Shown: in pieces, positions 54,269 to 62,390 of the stretch
Layout: each line of letters opens with the position of its first letter
How positions within the stretch are numbered: position 1 is the stretch's first letter
From: Algoriphagus machipongonensis
GTDB taxonomy: Bacteria > Bacteroidota > Bacteroidia > Cytophagales > Cyclobacteriaceae
Direction: 5' to 3'
Assembly (NCBI RefSeq): GCF_000166275.1
Contig: NZ_CM001023.1
Coordinates: forward strand, 2,483,001 to 2,547,000
DNA length: 64,000 nucleotides
The notes under the pieces: model-generated
Databases searched by the model: none
Told to the model about the DNA's origin: nothing
What the model saw: the letters and a program-made list of their open reading frames with translations, nothing else
Program-made: the position numbers and the translations under genes

Positions 54269-57200
54269 ATGTCCATCAGAGTTGCCTTACGCCACTATAC
54301 TAAATATCAATACGACCGTCACATTACCCTAAGTCCCCAGGTAATCCGTTTAAGGCCCGCACCGCATTCCCGTACCCATATCAAAGCCTATTCCCTGAAT
54401 ATAAAGCCAGAAAACCATTTTATTAACTGGCAGCAAGATCCTTTTGGGAATTACTTGGCAAGAATTGTCTTTCAAGAAAAAGTGAAGTTTTTTGAAATCG
54501 ATGTAGAAGTCATCGCAGATATGGTGGTGATTAATCCATTTGACTTTTTTGTGGAAGATTATGCGGAAGTTTTTCCTTTTAAGTATGAAGACAGCCTCAA
54601 GAATCAGTTGAGTCCTTATTTGGAACTGAAGGAAAAGGATCCCCTTTTGATGGACTTGGTAGCAAAAGCTAAATCCATCCTAGCTGAAAACACCAAAACA
54701 GTAGATTACTTGGTTCAAATCAATATGTTGATTCATAATCAATTGAAATACAATGTAAGGATGGAGCCTGGAGTCCAAAGCTGCGAGGAAAGTTTGACGA
54801 AAGGTTCTGGTTCATGCAGGGACTTTGCCTGGTTAATGGTGCTAGTTCTTCGACACGTGGGTCTAGCAGCTCGTTTTGCCTCTGGGTATTTGGTTCAACT
54901 TAAATCAGACGAAAAATCTTTAGATGGACCTTCCGGACCAGAGGAAGATTTTACGGATCTGCATGCTTGGACTGAAGTGTTTATTCCTGGTGCAGGCTGG
55001 ATAGGTCTTGACTCAACTTCGGGGCTTTTTGCCGGTGAAGGTCATATTCCATTAGCTTGTACTCCAAGCCCACAAGATGCTGCCCCTATTTCCGGAATGG
55101 CGGAGCCCGCTGAAACAACTTTTGAATTCGAAAATGAGGTGACACGAATAGTGGAAAAGCCTCGGGTTACTAAACCATATTCAGATGAGCAATGGCAAAA
55201 GATTCTGGATGTAGGAGATAAAGTTGATGCAGACCTAGAAGCCAACGATGTGAAATTGACGATGGGAGGTGAGCCTACATTTGTATCCGTCGATAATCAA
55301 GATGCTCCAGAATGGAATTCTGATGCCGATGGAGAACATAAAAGAAGTCTTTCAAATACACTTTTTCATAAACTGAAAGGCGAATTTGGTACAGGTGCAT
55401 TGATGCAATATGGTCAGGGGAAATGGTATCCTGGAGAACCTTTGCCTAGATGGAAATTAGCTTGCTTCTGGAGAAAAGATGGCATTCCTATGTGGCATAA
55501 TGATGCTTTAATGGCTGATTTATCAAAAGACTATAAACATTCGGCAAAAGATGCAGAGGCATTTATGACCGAGCTCACCACTCATTTAAATGTAGATCAA
55601 AAAAATATTACTCCTCTTTATGAGGATCCTATATATTTCATCTGGCAAGAGAGCAAAATTCCAGTTAATGTAGACCCAAAAGATTTTGATTTAAAATCTC
55701 CTCTGGAAAGGCAAAAACTTGCACAGTTATTAACTGAGGGATTGGATAAGCCAATTGGTTTTTCAGTGCCCTTAGAATGGGAATATGTGGAAGACAGATG
55801 GCAAAGTTGTTATTGGAAATTCAGAAGGAATGACCTATTTCTAGTTCCTGGAAATTCACCTGCCGGTTTGCGATTACCATTGGATTCTATTGAGCATACA
55901 CCGACCGAAGAGGAACCTATACTTCCAGAAAGAGATCTTTTTGCTGATGTGGATGCATTGCCAGATTTGAGTCATGAAGAATTTAAGACTAAACCTCCTT
56001 TAAATTCTAAGAGGATATTTAAAACTGCCTTGGTGGTTGAAGCCAGGGAAGGAAAGTTATTTGTGTTTTTTCCTCCAGTGTCTACGATGGAGCAATACCT
56101 TGATTTAGTTCAGGCAGTCGAGAGAACAGCTGAGAAATTGAAGACACCTATCTTGATAGAAGGTTATGACCCACCATCGGATAAGCGTATAGAAAAAATG
56201 ATGATTACGCCAGACCCAGGTGTAATCGAAGTAAATATCCAACCAGCAAAAACTTGGAAAGAAATCCTTAATAATTATGGGATACTTTATGAAAAGGCCA
56301 GGGAGACCAGGCTCATTAGTGAAAAATTTAATGTGGATGGAAAACACACTGGCACAGGTGGTGGAAACCACATAACACTAGGTGGTGTCACACCAGATCA
56401 AAGCCCAATATTACGAAGGCCCGATATCTTAAAAAGTTTTATAACGTATTGGCAACACCACCCATCTTTATCCTATCTGTTTTCTACTCAGTTCATTGGA
56501 CCAACCAGTCAGGCACCCAGAGTGGATGAAGGAAGAGATGATATATTGTATGAGCTGGAGTTAGCCTTCCAACAAGTGCCTTTGGGAAAAGAGGATGAAA
56601 TTCCTTATTGGATGGTGGATCGAATCTTTAGAAATTTATTAGTTGACATAACTGGTAATACACATCGTGCGGAATTTTGTATAGATAAGTTATATTCGCC
56701 GGATTCTAGCAGCGGAAGGCTGGGGATTTTGGAGTTTAGAGGTTTTGATATGCCACCTCATTTTAGAATGAGCATGGTTCAATTGCTTCTAATTCGAGGA
56801 CTGATGAGTTGGTTTTGGAAAGAACCTTATGATCATAAGCTAGTGAGATGGGGAACATCTCTTCATGATAAATTCCTACTGCCTCATCACTGTCAGAAAG
56901 ACTTAGAAGAGGTTGTCAATGATTTGAACAGGGCTGGATATGATTTCGATCTTAGCTGGTTTGACCCATTCTTCAGCTTTAGATTTCCATTTATTGGAGA
57001 ACTACAAGAAGGAGAAATCAAAGTGGAGTTGAAAATGGCGATTGAGCCCTGGCATGTTTTGGGTGAAGAGATGTCTAGTACCGGTACAGCCAGGTATGTA
57101 GATTCCTCTTTGGAGCGATTGCAAATAAAAATCTCTGGATTAACAGATTCCAGATATCATTTACTTTGCAACGGTCATAGAATCCCTTTGAAAAACACGG

Positions 57201-57625
57201 GAGTTCAAGGAGAGTATGTGACAGGAATACGGTATAGAGCTTGGCAGCCTTATTCTGCATTGCATCCTACCATCGGGATTGATACGCCTCTGGTGATAGA
57301 TTTATATGATACTTGGACCAAAAAGTCAGTGGCTGCTTGCCAATATCATGTGGTCCATCCTGGAGGTAGAAGTTACGATTCTTTCCCTGTCAATAGTTAT
57401 GAGGCAGAATCCCGTAGAATTTCAAGATTCTATGACTATGGGCATACGATTAATCCTGTCAAGGAACCCTTGGAAATGCCTATCGCGAGCAATCAAGGAG
57501 AAGGAAAACCGGATCGATACATTAGTAAACTAGAATTAAAAACAGCCTACAAAGAGGCACCTGCAATAGTCAACCCAGAATTTCCATACACCATGGACCT
57601 TCGGAGATATAAAAAGTTTGATTGA
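54269..57625 (+). CDS. transglutaminase-like protease fused to putative amidoligase (DUF2126)
   Basis: The 1118-residue protein begins with the bacterial transglutaminase N-terminal domain (RHYTKYQYDRHITLSPQV). A papain-fold transglutaminase core follows with the full triad: Cys183 (GSGSCRDFAW), His232 (LHAWTEVFIP) and Asp248 (GLDSTSG). From about residue 325 to the end is DUF2126, a putative amidoligase (KLTMGGEPTFVSVDN, HTGTGGGNHITLGG, GILEFRGFDMPPHFRM). No signal peptide is seen, so it is cytoplasmic. It heads a three-gene operon with an ATP-grasp/alpha-E protein and a second transglutaminase. Family context suggests peptide ligation and trimming; the substrate is unknown. Confidence 0.93.
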   Translation: MSIRVALRHYTKYQYDRHITLSPQVIRLRPAPHSRTHIKAYSLNIKPENHFINWQQDPFGNYLARIVFQEKVKFFEIDVEVIADMVVINPFDFFVEDYAEVFPFKYEDSLKNQLSPYLELKEKDPLLMDLVAKAKSILAENTKTVDYLVQINMLIHNQLKYNVRMEPGVQSCEESLTKGSGSCRDFAWLMVLVLRHVGLAARFASGYLVQLKSDEKSLDGPSGPEEDFTDLHAWTEVFIPGAGWIGLDSTSGLFAGEGHIPLACTPSPQDAAPISGMAEPAETTFEFENEVTRIVEKPRVTKPYSDEQWQKILDVGDKVDADLEANDVKLTMGGEPTFVSVDNQDAPEWNSDADGEHKRSLSNTLFHKLKGEFGTGALMQYGQGKWYPGEPLPRWKLACFWRKDGIPMWHNDALMADLSKDYKHSAKDAEAFMTELTTHLNVDQKNITPLYEDPIYFIWQESKIPVNVDPKDFDLKSPLERQKLAQLLTEGLDKPIGFSVPLEWEYVEDRWQSCYWKFRRNDLFLVPGNSPAGLRLPLDSIEHTPTEEEPILPERDLFADVDALPDLSHEEFKTKPPLNSKRIFKTALVVEAREGKLFVFFPPVSTMEQYLDLVQAVERTAEKLKTPILIEGYDPPSDKRIEKMMITPDPGVIEVNIQPAKTWKEILNNYGILYEKARETRLISEKFNVDGKHTGTGGGNHITLGGVTPDQSPILRRPDILKSFITYWQHHPSLSYLFSTQFIGPTSQAPRVDEGRDDILYELELAFQQVPLGKEDEIPYWMVDRIFRNLLVDITGNTHRAEFCIDKLYSPDSSSGRLGILEFRGFDMPPHFRMSMVQLLLIRGLMSWFWKEPYDHKLVRWGTSLHDKFLLPHHCQKDLEEVVNDLNRAGYDFDLSWFDPFFSFRFPFIGELQEGEIKVELKMAIEPWHVLGEEMSSTGTARYVDSSLERLQIKISGLTDSRYHLLCNGHRIPLKNTGVQGEYVTGIRYRAWQPYSALHPTIGIDTPLVIDLYDTWTKKSVAACQYHVVHPGGRSYDSFPVNSYEAESRRISRFYDYGHTINPVKEPLEMPIASNQGEGKPDRYISKLELKTAYKEAPAIVNPEFPYTMDLRRYKKFD

Positions 57626-57661
57626 TAAATATTCCATGTGGAATTAGTTGAAAAAGGAGAT

Positions 57662-60202
57662 ATGATTGAATCTTATCTTACGGAGAAGATGTTCAATAAT
57701 GAGCCGTTTCTGGATGAAATGGCCACGGATGAAGGCAAAATCCACTCTCATTGGAAACAAATTGCCAAATACTATAATCAGATTGGTTCAGAGAAAATGG
57801 GCCAATTTCAGGAAGAAGTAGCCCGTCAACTTCGTGAAAACGGGGTGACCTATAATGTCTATGGTGATCCTGATGGAATGAATAGGCCTTGGATTTTAGA
57901 CCCGGTTCCAATGGTTTTTGAAAGCCAGGAGTGGGAGGAATTAGATAAAGGACTTGTTCAGCGTACCGAACTCTTAAATTTGATTCTAAAAGATCTTTAT
58001 GGTGAGCAAAGCCTAATTAAAGAGGGATTTATTCCTTTTGAGCTGATCTATAATCATAGAGGATATCTAAGACAAGCACAGCATATCAAATTGGATGGAG
58101 ATCAGCAATTGATTCAATATTCCTCCGATCTTGCCAGAGGGCCCAATGGTAAAATGTGGGTGCTTCATGATCGTACGGATGCTCCTTCCGGTGCAGGCTA
58201 CACCTTTGAAAATAGAGCTGCCATGACACGTGTTTTTCCTGAATTAATTCGGGAAAACCATGTTCGGAAAATAACTTCCTACTATCAAACTTTTAAGAAT
58301 ACTCTAAGTAATCTTACTCTGAATAATAAGGAAAACCCGAGGGTGGTTTTACTTTCTCCCGGTCCAACCAATGAAACCTTTTTTGAGCATGCCTATATCT
58401 CCTCATTTATGGGGTTTACGCTCGCTTTTGGAGAGGATTTAACGGTAAGTGGAGGCTATGTATGGCTGAAGACAATTAAGGGTCTGGAGAAAGTTGATGT
58501 TATCATTCGTAGGGTGGATGATTTGTTTTGTGATCCGCTGGAATATAGAAATGATTCCCATCTTGGAGTGGTAGGATTAATGGAGGCTGTCCGACAGAAA
58601 AAAGTACTTGTGATCAATCCTTTGGGTTGTAGAGTTCTTGAAAACCCCGGATTGATGGCCTTTTTGCCAAAAATCTCAAAGCACCTGCTCGGGCAAGATT
58701 TGTCTCTTCCTTCAGTAGCAACCTGGTGGTGTGGTCAACCCAAAGAAATGAAGTATGTTTTCGAACATATGGAGACTTTGGTTATCAGAAATATCTATCG
58801 AGGCACCGCTCATAAATCTGTTTTTGGAGGAGAACTTTCCAAAGCAGAATTGGAGAAACTAAAGCAGAGTATCAAGAGGAATCCATACATGTTTGTAGGA
58901 CAAGAGATGGTAGACTTTTCTACTTCGCCTTCTTGGATTGATAATAAGCTGGAAGCCAGAAACGCTGTCTTTAGAAGTTATGTAGTAGCAGATACCGAAA
59001 GTAAAAGCTACAAAGTGATGCCAGGTGGACTATCCAGAAGCTCTCCTAAAAAAGGAGCCTTTTTAGTCTCTAATCAAACAGGGGGTATCAGTAAGGATAC
59101 TTGGGTTTTAGGCAAGAAAAGAGAATCTACTTCAAGTTATTCGGCAACTATAAAAGCCCAACCATTGATTCGCAATGTGCTACCCAGTAGGACAGGAGAA
59201 CGATTGTTTTGGCTAGGCAGGTATCTAGAAAGATCAGCCTATACTGTTCGTTTAATTAGAATGACATTATTATCTTATAATGAGGCAGATGAGGATATTC
59301 ATGTCTATGAAAATCCTGTTTTGGGCACCATGCTGAAAACGCTCACTGCACTGACAGGAACACTGCCGGGATTTCAGGAAAAAGCAACACTGAAAAACCC
59401 GGAACCAGAACTACTTTCATTAGTTCATGATATTTCAAAATCTGGAACATTAGCTTATTCAATTCAATCATTCTTGACCAATGCCTATGCGGTGAGAGAT
59501 CGTTTGAGTTTAGATACTTGGAGGATTTTGGATAGCATATCTGAAGAGTTGACCAGAATGAGAAAGTCTGAAACGACCCTAATGCAAGCCTACCATAATT
59601 TAGATAATATGGTGATCAAATTGATGGCTTTTTATGGGTTGAATATTGATAATATGACTCGTGAACCTACTTGGCATTTATTAAATATTGGGAGGTTTAT
59701 TGAGTCAGCAGCAAATAACTGTACGATACTCAAGAACATGCTTCATCAATCTTTCGATTTGGAAGACAATAAGGAGCTGATGGAGAACACGTTGAGGTGT
59801 AATGAAAGTTTGGTGACTTATCGCTATAGATACCGCTCCAATCTTGAAATGCATGGTGTTTTAAGCCTATTGATATTGCATGAGGATAATCCTAGGTCTT
59901 TGATATTTCAGTTGCTAGAGATTGATAGCCACTTAAAAACATTACCAAATCAGGAAGAGGCTGAGTTATTTAGTATCGAAAGAAAGAAACTTCTGGAGGC
60001 GATTACTAAAATCAGGCTTTGTGATATAGATGTTTTAGCAACAGTGGATCCTGAAACCAAGCAGTATCATGAGTTAAACCACTTCTTAGATCAAATTATA
60101 GAACTACTTCACGATACTTCCGACGTGATTTATCAAAATTATTTTAGTCATACCGGAAGCGGATATAGTATGATTCAAACCTCTGTTCTACCTGAGATAT
60201 GA
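57662..60202 (+). CDS. circularly permuted ATP-grasp ligase fused to alpha-E domain
   Basis: Residues 1-~480 form the circularly permuted ATP-grasp (DUF404/DUF407): VYGDPDGMNRPWILDPVP, SSDLARGPNGKMWVLHDRTD, GAGYTFENR and VINPLGCRVLENPGL, typical of COOH-amine ligases. From LPSRTGERLFWLGRYLERS (near residue 515) the all-helical alpha-E domain (DUF403) follows to the end. Many genomes carry these as two genes. Start: a GTG at 57638 is possible, but the ATG at 57662 has a good ribosome site (AAGGAGAT just before it), giving 846 residues. The stop overlaps the next ATG by 4 bases. Confidence 0.93.
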   Translation: MIESYLTEKMFNNEPFLDEMATDEGKIHSHWKQIAKYYNQIGSEKMGQFQEEVARQLRENGVTYNVYGDPDGMNRPWILDPVPMVFESQEWEELDKGLVQRTELLNLILKDLYGEQSLIKEGFIPFELIYNHRGYLRQAQHIKLDGDQQLIQYSSDLARGPNGKMWVLHDRTDAPSGAGYTFENRAAMTRVFPELIRENHVRKITSYYQTFKNTLSNLTLNNKENPRVVLLSPGPTNETFFEHAYISSFMGFTLAFGEDLTVSGGYVWLKTIKGLEKVDVIIRRVDDLFCDPLEYRNDSHLGVVGLMEAVRQKKVLVINPLGCRVLENPGLMAFLPKISKHLLGQDLSLPSVATWWCGQPKEMKYVFEHMETLVIRNIYRGTAHKSVFGGELSKAELEKLKQSIKRNPYMFVGQEMVDFSTSPSWIDNKLEARNAVFRSYVVADTESKSYKVMPGGLSRSSPKKGAFLVSNQTGGISKDTWVLGKKRESTSSYSATIKAQPLIRNVLPSRTGERLFWLGRYLERSAYTVRLIRMTLLSYNEADEDIHVYENPVLGTMLKTLTALTGTLPGFQEKATLKNPEPELLSLVHDISKSGTLAYSIQSFLTNAYAVRDRLSLDTWRILDSISEELTRMRKSETTLMQAYHNLDNMVIKLMAFYGLNIDNMTREPTWHLLNIGRFIESAANNCTILKNMLHQSFDLEDNKELMENTLRCNESLVTYRYRYRSNLEMHGVLSLLILHEDNPRSLIFQLLEIDSHLKTLPNQEEAELFSIERKKLLEAITKIRLCDIDVLATVDPETKQYHELNHFLDQIIELLHDTSDVIYQNYFSHTGSGYSMIQTSVLPEI

Positions 60203-61095
60203 AATACCAAGTCATCCATATCACAGATTATATCTATGAGTTTCCGGCTACATTATGCCATAACTTAATGTTTCAAATTCCCCAAAGTTCTCCTTTTCAG
60301 GAGGTTTTGGAGTATTCCTGTGAAATCAGTCCAAAACCCAGTTCTGAGGCAGAAAGGACTGATTTCTTTGGGAATAAATATCTTTATTTTTCTGTGGAGC
60401 GATCTCATAAGAAATTGACAGTGACCTCTCAGAGTGTATTGAAACTTCAAGAACCAGAATGGGTAGGAGTAGACCCTTCTCAAACTAAACCTTGGGAAGA
60501 AGTGGTGGACTGGCTTCATACGACAGAAGCCTCAAATGATATTAGACAATATTATTTGGAATCCGATCATGTCAATTTTTGGGAAGAAATAAAGGAATAT
60601 GCGTTAAAGTCCTTTACTCCGGGAAGACCTTTGATGGAAGCTGCAATAGAATTGAACACTAGAATATTTACCGATTTTCAATTCACCCCGGGCTTTACTG
60701 ATATCAGTACTCCATTAGAAAAGGTATTTGAACACAAAAAAGGAGTGTGTCAGGATTTTGCTCATTTTGAGTTAGCCTGCTTGAGAAGTCTCGGTCTAGC
60801 GGCGAGATATGTGAGTGGATATATAGAGACTTTGCCTCCTCCAGGTAAACCTAAATTAGTGGGATCAGATGCTTCTCATGCATGGATAGCAGTTTATATA
60901 CCAGATCATGAATGGGTAGAATTGGATGCTACCAATAACTTGCTAGTAAATGACAAACATGTACGTGTAGCAGTAGGTAGAGATTTTGCTGATGTAACCC
61001 CTCTCAAAGGAATCGTTTATAGTGGTAGTGAGCAGGAAATGAAAGTTAGCGTGGATGTAACGAATCTAGACTCTCAATTCCTACATGAAAATTAA
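60199..61095 (+). CDS. transglutaminase-like family protein
   Basis: The N-terminal half is the bacterial transglutaminase-associated beta domain (YQVIHITDYIYEFPA). The catalytic core has Cys184 (KKGVCQDFAHFELACLRS), His227 (DASHAWIAVYIP) and Asp243 (ELDATNN), a complete triad. Members act as proteases, amidases or acyl transferases. The start ATG overlaps the ATP-grasp/alpha-E stop codon (ATGA), so translation is coupled. With the transglutaminase of the first operon gene it forms a paralogous pair flanking the ligase. No signal peptide. Overlaps the convergent DUF3472 gene by 4 bases. Confidence 0.93.
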   Translation: MKYQVIHITDYIYEFPATLCHNLMFQIPQSSPFQEVLEYSCEISPKPSSEAERTDFFGNKYLYFSVERSHKKLTVTSQSVLKLQEPEWVGVDPSQTKPWEEVVDWLHTTEASNDIRQYYLESDHVNFWEEIKEYALKSFTPGRPLMEAAIELNTRIFTDFQFTPGFTDISTPLEKVFEHKKGVCQDFAHFELACLRSLGLAARYVSGYIETLPPPGKPKLVGSDASHAWIAVYIPDHEWVELDATNNLLVNDKHVRVAVGRDFADVTPLKGIVYSGSEQEMKVSVDVTNLDSQFLHEN

Positions 61096-62390
61096 GGAAG
61101 TTTATCCCAATCAATGCTAGGCGCTGTTCCCTGACTTGGCCTATTATGGATACTATTGATTGGAGTGTTAACATTAAAAAATCCCCCGTTTTTCAGGTAA
61201 AATTTGCCTAGACCTGAGCCTCCAGCATAATCCATTCTATATCCTCTTCTGGCTATATCATCTCCTGTGAATTTTGCTTCGGTAAGCTCTACCCAGTTTC
61301 CAAATTCATCAGCAGCCCATTGATTTTGGTATTCTCCCATTCTTTGGATATTTCCTGATTGCGGAACAAAATTCTCTAAGAAAGAATGCGGACTCTTGTA
61401 CCAGGTATCAGTTTTCGGTCTTAAAAAGCTTGCAATTAATATCCAATTGCCAACTTCCGGATCATAAAAATATGCTGTGTAAATAGTATTTCCATTTCCA
61501 TCCGGTTCAACGGAATTTAAAAAGCGGTAAGTTTGACCTGCTTTCCATGGGTATTTGAGAAAGCTTTGACCACCGGAACCTTCATTTCCAAATTCTCCCG
61601 TATATACGTCTTCTCCTTTTTTCAATAATTTGATCTTTTCTTCCTCAGGAATTTCGTTAGGATTATCCGTTTTGAAAGGACTCCAAACCGAAAACAATAT
61701 TCTTCTCTCGGTCTCGGAATTAACCTGAATACCAAAATACCCCTCCCCAAAACCATTTGCCATAAAATAAGAGCCGATGGGATCTTGACCAACAGGAACA
61801 CTTACTTCGTTGTAAAACCATTTGAAATTTTGGTTTTCTGGTAAAGTATAGGTTAAATGGACAGAAGGTCCTCTGCGACCCCAGTAGAAACGATTGTCAA
61901 TATTGTCTTTGACATAGTTTAGAGATAATTCACCTTCATAGCTGAATATCAAATTCTTGATTTTGGCATAATCTGCAGCTTCTTTGGAAATAGCTTTCAA
62001 GGTAATTTGGTTATACCCAGCCAATAATTTTATCTCTTTAACAGGAACATTTCCACTTTGCCCTTTTTCTAGATTAATGGTACTTGCTCCATCGAAATCA
62101 ATAAGTATTTCCGCATTTCCTTCTTGCTCTAATAGCTCTAGAGAGAGTAAAACCTGCTTTTCTTCTGCTGATTTGATATATATACTGAACTCACTTTGAT
62201 GGTCTGACCAAGATTCAATTCCTGAATTACCTATTTTTTCTTTGACACTTCCTGCCGTTTGGTATGCATTTCCTCCAAGTGGGATAGCAATTGTTGCAGA
62301 GTATTGATCTCTTGAGATTTCAATGCCTTCCTTGCTTAAAAAAACTGTGTTTAAAGAAAAAAGGAGGATTAATAAAAGGATGTTATTCAC
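61092..62390 (-). CDS. exported DUF5077/DUF3472 protein
   Basis: The 432-residue protein has a signal peptide (LLLILLFSLNTVFLS). A beta-sandwich (residues ~30-150, DUF5077-like) is followed by the DUF3472 domain with YWGRRGPSVHLTYTLPE, WFYNEVSVP, GYFGIQVNSETERRILFSVWSPF and LENFVPQSGNIQRMGEY. The pattern of aromatic and acidic residues suggests glycan binding, which is inference; no enzymatic activity is established. It is convergent to the transglutaminase operon (4-base overlap) and functionally separate. It is divergent from the FG-GAP protein gene with 154 bases between. Confidence 0.85.
   Translation of the reverse strand: MNNILLLILLFSLNTVFLSKEGIEISRDQYSATIAIPLGGNAYQTAGSVKEKIGNSGIESWSDHQSEFSIYIKSAEEKQVLLSLELLEQEGNAEILIDFDGASTINLEKGQSGNVPVKEIKLLAGYNQITLKAISKEAADYAKIKNLIFSYEGELSLNYVKDNIDNRFYWGRRGPSVHLTYTLPENQNFKWFYNEVSVPVGQDPIGSYFMANGFGEGYFGIQVNSETERRILFSVWSPFKTDNPNEIPEEEKIKLLKKGEDVYTGEFGNEGSGGQSFLKYPWKAGQTYRFLNSVEPDGNGNTIYTAYFYDPEVGNWILIASFLRPKTDTWYKSPHSFLENFVPQSGNIQRMGEYQNQWAADEFGNWVELTEAKFTGDDIARRGYRMDYAGGSGLGKFYLKNGGFFNVNTPINSIHNRPSQGTAPSIDWDKLP

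Follow-up and report, generated by a model that had tools for sequence, protein, structure and literature searches.

Three adjacent forward-strand genes (54269-57625, 57662-60202 and 60199-61095) in a 64,000-nucleotide stretch of the Algoriphagus machipongonensis chromosome (NZ_CM001023.1, positions 2,483,001 to 2,547,000; the whole stretch is called the window below) are best explained as belonging to a single amide-bond system of five genes, of which they form the accessory half and whose core gene pair lies 1.19 Mb away, an explanation in which we place about even confidence. Gene 1 encodes a transglutaminase-like (TG) domain fused to DUF2126, a predicted amidoligase domain of the glutamine synthetase (GS)-like type, gene 2 a circularly permuted (CP) ATP-grasp domain fused to an alpha-E domain, and gene 3 a stand-alone TG-like protein (TG3). 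ATP-grasp proteins of such systems divide into a group fused to alpha-E, which includes the window protein (F), and a sister group that is free-standing in the compared loci (S); the core pair encodes an ATP-grasp of the S type next to a free alpha-E protein.

Systems of this kind are already known as predictions and are uncharacterised, and the window holds a variant of the kind predicted in 2009. In that year, Iyer et al. reportedly predicted amidoligase systems built from DUF2126, alpha-E and CP-ATP-grasp proteins, and the initial annotation of the window had assigned the operon to the family set from this comparative genomics work; the domain families are reportedly the same. In proposing an uncharacterised amide-bond system, the annotation read the operon fairly, but the operon amounts to only half of the five-gene set. 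Members of these families are spread over many bacterial phyla; the literature searched names no substrate for them.

Two groups of ATP-grasp proteins and the residues lost in the window protein

A tree was built from 114 ATP-grasp domains, taken from 96 compared loci (80 named loci and 16 from Bacteroidota), the second copy in the A. machipongonensis genome and the window. It separates an S group of 50 members from an F group of 64 by a branch with a support of 100 in the Shimodaira-Hasegawa-like approximate likelihood ratio test (SH-aLRT), with the window protein in F, the second copy of its own genome in S, and each group extending across several phyla. All F members in the tree are fused to alpha-E, except one that is cut by a contig end. 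The tree and alignment counts and the locus counts given further below both comprise 64 F members, though of slightly different sets: the former contain the window without the fragment L058, the latter L058 without the window. Fusion alone is no marker of the F group, as genome G565 carries an S-type ATP-grasp fused to alpha-E (L138, 3741-6377).

In the S group, the Glu and Asn of an E-D-N motif are present in 50/50 members and a GGYG loop in 49/50, whereas not one of the 64 F members retains both Glu and Asn (one has the Glu) and none has the GGYG loop. The position of the lost Asn is occupied by Arg in 57/64 F members, the Asp of the motif is retained in 56/64, and a Lys is retained in 50/64, being Arg in the window protein. 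At the site of the motif the window protein reads H-D-R (58166..58174; H177, D178 and R179 when numbered from an upstream GTG), and T-A-H-K stands in place of the glycine loop (58805..58816; residues 390-393 in the same numbering). When the profiles of S and F are aligned with each other, the same residues are paired at both lost sites, and two F genes outside the set read A-D-R (L136) and A-D-H without the loop (L137). By analogy with glutathionylspermidine synthetase, we take E-x-N to be the metal pair and GGYG to be ATP/Mg residues; aligned with that family, the S profile places its D, E and N on the D-x12-E-x-N of the synthetase with the same spacing, at a weak score (E 0.57). The solved S-type ATP-grasp 3n6x belongs to the same family as the window protein (E 1.9e-82) and has E-D-N and GGYG, both of which the window protein lacks.

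Judged by the E-x-N pair and the glycine loop, the window protein does not resemble a catalytic ATP-grasp ligase, and from its sequence it looks like a disabled or repurposed one; if so, a working ligase is probably encoded elsewhere on the chromosome. The initial annotation had described all motifs of the operon as intact and had counted two putative amide-bond-forming enzymes in it, which stands for the TG triads and for DUF2126 with its conserved motifs, but not for the ATP-grasp domain with its lost metal-pair and loop residues. Within the alpha-E domain, the residues of the first core (W21, R24, R28, R34 and G181) do not vary among 20 F and 21 S rows; the second motif is E-S in the window and E-R in 21/21 S rows.

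The probable core pair elsewhere in the genome

An alpha-E search of the A. machipongonensis genome led to a second place at 3729155-3730090, where an S-type ATP-grasp (475 amino acids) with intact motifs and a free alpha-E protein (328 amino acids) adjoin at G000:C1:3729104-3731524. Neither a TG nor an Anbu gene is present in the 16-kb stretch around this pair. The genome has only four matches in a TG-core search, two of them in the window and two adjacent to each other at 366310-368419, which are of the DUF3857 type and lack Bact_transglu_N. Since the S pair has no TG of its own and the remaining TG-core matches are of the DUF3857 type only, the window TGs are its likely partners and may serve it over the distance, in which case they would stand in for the TG normally found with S pairs. 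The genome can be regarded as a natural experiment in which the S pair appears to rely on the TGs of the window. Anbu was considered as a further partner and rejected: none is found beside the S pair or the window operon, and a whole-genome search with PF00227, a profile that scores Anbu weakly and could miss one, matched HslV only.

How unusual an S pair devoid of a neighbouring TG is can be seen from other genomes. An adjacent TG accompanies the S pair in 28/28 chosen Bacteroidota genomes without DUF2126, nine of which have Anbu there as well. In F genomes, 12 of 34 S loci lack a separate adjacent TG, including two where the TG-DUF2126 gene is adjacent instead, and Anbu stands beside 4/34; these loci stem from 32 genomes out of the 43 that have both S and F, two loci each coming from G314 and G326, and seven of the examined stretches (L150, L151, L163, L164, L186, L196 and L201) touch a contig end. 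Within Bacteroidota, the TG is missing at 4/15 F-genome loci (own genome included) versus 0/28.

Co-occurrence across genomes

DUF2126 is patchily distributed and present in 7/60 genomes of the family of A. machipongonensis, its own genome included; three sampled genomes of the same genus have S and neither DUF2126 nor F. Among 247 Bacteroidota genomes, alpha-E exceeds the cut-off in 95, DUF2126 is found in 11 and F in 8, and the three are nested, with alpha-E in 11/11 DUF2126 genomes and DUF2126 in 8/8 F genomes. The same picture, with exceptions, is seen in the class to which G326 (a Pseudomonas) belongs, where 232 genomes yield alpha-E in 70, DUF2126 in 43 and F in 20, alpha-E accompanying DUF2126 in 43/43 and DUF2126 accompanying F in 18/20. 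Searched as a whole, 51 DUF2126 genomes contain both S and F alpha-E in 43 cases, S only in seven and F only in one; 17 of them derive from the samples and 34 from the 80 named loci, the latter taken mainly where the two modules were not both visible in the flanks. Where the flanks hold a single module, the other is usually located elsewhere in the genome.

S and F were distinguished in these genome counts by frame length and score. Eight places were inspected more closely; long S-type alpha-E frames that result from run-on only (L139, L140, L142 and L143) and the fused S-type L138 were not counted as F, a 796-amino-acid frame of G470 stood outside close inspection, and a below-cut-off Bacteroidota match (G208) is not among the 95. 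Sampling of Bacteroidota was uneven, in that one family (f17) makes up about two thirds of the alpha-E genomes, and the alpha-E, DUF2126 and F counts of each sample are assumed to come from the same draws, as sizes and handles agree in lists shown in part. Four genomes (G503, G376, G474 and G483) carry, besides the usual one, a second and shorter DUF2126-related match in frames of 713-718 amino acids.

Gene neighbourhoods

In other bacteria, the five genes are often neighbours. All five occur on one strand and in an uninterrupted order of system genes in 15/96 loci, 12 of which are arranged as S, alpha-E, DUF2126, F, TG3 and three as DUF2126, F, TG3, S, alpha-E, with gaps under about 350 bases. 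These complete sets come from Bacteroidota, Pseudomonadota, Thermodesulfobacteriota, Planctomycetota and Verrucomicrobiota; L082 and L089, from Marinomonas and Halioglobus, are examples of a contiguous five-gene operon. Within reach of the 80 named DUF2126 genes, both F and S are present in 30 loci, F only in 24, S only in 14 and neither in 12; the corresponding numbers for the 16 Bacteroidota loci are 2, 8, 4 and 2. TG3 adjoins F on the same strand for 60/64 F genes, the others being L117, in which the TG is cut by the locus end, and three at contig ends. Three further F genes were seen, two of them with a TG. One lies in G427, where the S pair, F and a TG stand in a row without a DUF2126 match (L136, 3877-9992), giving a four-gene version; the one in G348 (L137, 2601-5177), likewise without a DUF2126 match, has no TG within 8 kb. 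Anbu is located near DUF2126 in 17/96 loci.

Predicted structures

The AlphaFold2 model of the alpha-E domain is all-helical, with a predicted local distance difference test score (pLDDT) of 92; neither a fold nor a profile search of the PDB returned a match at E 0.001 or better, an absence that shows little. For the model of DUF2126 (pLDDT 72.9), GS-type entries lead, making up 37 of the 50 listed fold matches and including glutamine synthetase and gamma-glutamylmethylamide synthetase, but all of these matches are weak. DUF2126 differs from these types by large extra regions, by its fusion to TG and by the lack of any sequence match found in the PDB.

Proposed working and its relation to nitrogen

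In the working scheme that we propose, the S-type ATP-grasp together with alpha-E would couple a carboxylate, activated at the expense of ATP, to an amine, and DUF2126, probably of the glutamine synthetase fold, would make a second amide bond. The TG domains, which have complete Cys-His-Asp triads, would cut or transfer such bonds, and the fused window protein, having lost its ATP/metal residues, would serve TG3 as a binding subunit that is non-catalytic or repurposed. The pathway would make an amide-linked compound and reopen it when nitrogen is short, and such a cycle of amide ligation and hydrolysis probably serves nitrogen use.

Published data assign S-type clusters of other bacteria to NtrC control, together with a large TG protein in Burkholderia. 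In Burkholderia cenocepacia, I35_5080-5083 (encoding DUF404/407, DUF403, TG and a large TG protein) are targets of NtrC and sigma-54, with listed values of -8.2, -9.4, -9.4 and -6.0 (PMC5491218); the large protein is taken here as TG-DUF2126 by its size and place, an assignment that is ours and is not made in the paper. In Pseudomonas putida, nitrogen limitation raises PP_2686-2688 by 11 to 37 fold (PMC7801951), PP2685-2687 also rise (PMC3325844), and PP_2685 and PP_2688 are about 16 to 22 fold up on nitrate versus ammonium (PMC8050072). Biochemical data come from the ATP-grasp of the Yersinia bercovieri Anbu operon, which releases phosphate from ATP in an assay that did not distinguish ligation from hydrolysis (PMC6376114); judged by its operon, with its sequence unseen, the protein is taken to be S-type. 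In addition, a review table (PMC7764037) credits a metagenome clone carrying ATP-grasp, alpha-E, TG and protease genes with nematode killing, and for a Mycobacterium leprae protein with PF08379 and PF09899, no experimental study is said to describe a function (PMC11597610). A literature search by the name DUF2126 found no papers.

Taken further, the conserved pseudo-ATP-grasp/alpha-E protein might have turned into the dedicated partner of a TG-fold hydrolase, for which it would bind the substrate or act in regulation, with the true ligase encoded elsewhere and the whole acting as a nitrogen-economy amide cycle of unseen product; to this more detailed proposal we give clearly less than even credence. 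For experimental work, the distinction between a core branch whose motifs are intact and an accessory branch lacking them, together with the co-occurrence in genomes, singles out the S-type ATP-grasp with DUF2126 as first to assay, nitrogen limitation as the condition, and the F-type protein as a possible pseudoenzyme.

Several points weigh against the main explanation. Nesting is incomplete: 2/20 F genomes in the class of G326 (G427 and G348) have no DUF2126 match, the F gene of G348 stands without a TG in the surrounding 8 kb, and G330 is the one genome among the 51 with F and without S. Fisher values for the associations are too small owing to shared ancestry, and weight is placed on the pattern instead; the 28 TG-bearing S loci are from Bacteroidota only and were hand-chosen from 84 in the sample. 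The ATP-grasp tree was built quickly, had no bootstrap and carried warnings of long branches and uneven composition. The ATP/Mg role of E-x-N and GGYG is drawn from the analogy and the weak profile match mentioned above, and lost motifs are no proof of lost activity, given the Asp and Lys kept by most F proteins and their Arg at the lost Asn, which looks selected. The fold matches of DUF2126 are non-significant (best E 0.016), with template modelling (TM) scores by target under 0.3 for the GS-type entries. Nitrogen control was seen in proteobacteria only, and PP_2685 is up only 1.1 to 4.8 fold under nitrogen limitation (PMC7801951). Expression of the Anbu operon was unchanged under various conditions and its genes were non-essential without stress (PMC5666114); neither glutamate nor glutamine nor Anbu stimulated the Yersinia ATP-grasp (PMC6376114). 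Finally, the literature searched contains no demonstrated reaction for a TG, alpha-E or DUF2126 member of these systems.

Alternative explanations

Pathways of the PuuA or GmaS type provide the model for a system of salvage instead of synthesis, in which ATP-dependent acylation (e.g. glutamylation) would mark an amine or peptide for degradation and its nitrogen would be freed by the TG hydrolases. Such a role is unlikely, if the least so of the alternatives. It would fit the company that the genes keep in the NtrC regulon, namely urea, xanthine and polyamine genes (PMC5491218), the grouping of DUF403/404/407 with urea genes in one of the marine metagenome networks (PMC3597751), and the presence of gamma-glutamylmethylamide synthetase among the weak DUF2126 fold matches. 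However, these matches lack significance, and the indifference of the Yersinia ATP-grasp to glutamate and glutamine (PMC6376114) does not favour glutamylation; moreover, no widely recurrent uptake or oxidation gene is found among the 45 neighbour families listed, most of them unannotated, the family of an ABC-transporter ATPase reaching 5/96 loci.

The F-type ATP-grasp might instead be an active ligase with altered metal chemistry, so that the operon would hold two working ligases. Conservation across phyla, the near-fixed residues of its own such as the Arg at the lost Asn, and the mostly retained Asp and Lys speak for this, but with both metal residues and the glycine loop at 0/64 we consider this rather improbable.

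Still more doubtful is a protein-tagging function, in which the ligases would join a peptide or an amino acid to proteins, to be removed again by TGs or Anbu, a hypothesis reported for the Anbu operon (PMC6376114). The four-gene Anbu operon (ATP-grasp, alpha-E, transglutaminase and Anbu), which stands in a row in the same-genus genomes G134, G169 and G251 (L141, L177 and L178), shares the S-type ATP-grasp and alpha-E as well as a TG-like protein with the system described here; it differs from it in that the S pair of A. machipongonensis has neither Anbu nor TG adjacent and in that the window adds DUF2126 and the fused F-type ATP-grasp/alpha-E protein. The Anbu genes beside S pairs and near DUF2126 counted above (9/28, 4/34 and 17/96 loci) favour tagging, but A. 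machipongonensis yielded HslV alone with the weak Anbu detector PF00227 and no Anbu by its S pair, and Anbu itself showed neither peptidase activity nor specific binding to its operon partners (PMC6376114).

In some known systems, ATP-grasp enzymes act on ribosomal peptides, and the initial annotation had suggested a hidden substrate peptide and a search for conserved small open reading frames (ORFs) near homologous operons; that a small gene near or far supplies the substrate is very improbable, since the 36-base and overlapping junctions leave no space for one, no recurrent small ORF family such as a graspetide-like precursor was found beside the operon homologues among the best 45 families (ORFs of at least 30 amino acids within 5 kb in the 96 loci without the window, BLAST E 1e-6, a threshold that short peptides may miss), and those families with small ORFs reach at most 6/96 loci and sit where longer genes lie. 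The families were ranked by loci outside the 11 Pseudomonas-like ones, which places Pseudomonas-only families low.

Operon layout and domain composition

The layout proposed in the initial annotation, three genes joined by junctions of 36 and -4 bases, proved right in its coordinates. The longest frame of gene 2 begins at GTG 57638 (854 amino acids); five of six orthologues begin with MI.SYL and the sixth two codons earlier, so that ATG 57662 is the likely start, giving 846 amino acids, a distance of 36 bases to gene 1 and an overlap of four bases with gene 3. The domain calls made at that stage are borne out by Pfam matches far above the cut-offs.

The protein of gene 1 (1118 amino acids) consists of Bact_transglu_N (6-83), Transglut_core (134-248) and DUF2126 (280-1112; 55106..57604), a fusion found in 96/96 compared loci. 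The DUF2126 match (PF09899) is full-length (profile positions 2-826 of 826, 1294 bits, E 0), and the motifs GGEPTF, PDPGVIEVN, GTGGGNH and GRLGILE.R are invariant or near-invariant in 28 aligned rows. The catalytic codons of its TG domain are those of Cys183 (54815..54817), His232 (at 54962) and Asp248 (at 55010), and among gene 1-type proteins, window included, the triad is conserved with C in 97/97 and H and D in 96/97 each, one gap apiece. Gene 2 matches CP_ATPgrasp_2 (E 7.9e-144, 479.7 bits), CP_ATPgrasp_1 (326.2 bits) and Alpha-E (PF04168, E 1.2e-67, 229 bits), the last covering residues 515-836 in GTG numbering (59180..60145). Gene 3, the usual neighbour of F-type genes, encodes 298 amino acids with Bact_transglu_N and Transglut_core, and Cys, His and Asp are each present in 64/64 proteins of its type, window included. 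As stated in the initial annotation, no export signal is seen on any of the three proteins, as judged by eye only.

Foreign origin was considered on base composition and set aside, because the guanine-plus-cytosine (GC) content of the genes, 0.387-0.406 against 0.377 for the window, is not telling. Comparison of the insertion site with G134, G169 and G251 gave one flanking protein unmatched in all three genomes and the other matched in two, and the site is not comparable. A role in anti-phage defence was likewise rejected, as a PADLOC scan of the S pair and the three window proteins returned nothing apart from a Cas2b hit (E 0.006) judged to be chance. Downstream, a convergent DUF5077/DUF3472 protein (61092-62390, reverse strand), which has no match in the three same-genus genomes, overlaps gene 3 by four bases.

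Other genes recur near the system in a few loci. A protein combining a zinc ribbon and a putative metallopeptidase domain (PF10005 and PF15887) is found in 6/96, namely L040 (14901-15950) and L049 (13356-14414) by Pfam and L098, L099, L100 and L103 by BLAST cluster. Six loci (L069, 6656-7909; L046, L047, L074, L080 and L111) have a 417-amino-acid protein near the S/DUF2126 genes, for which L069 was scanned without a Pfam match, and three (L063, L072 and L101) have an AstE/AspA-type hydrolase (PF24827, scanned in L063). The operon-bearing record L050 is titled as a Helicobacter pylori metagenome-assembled genome, a title that looks doubtful.

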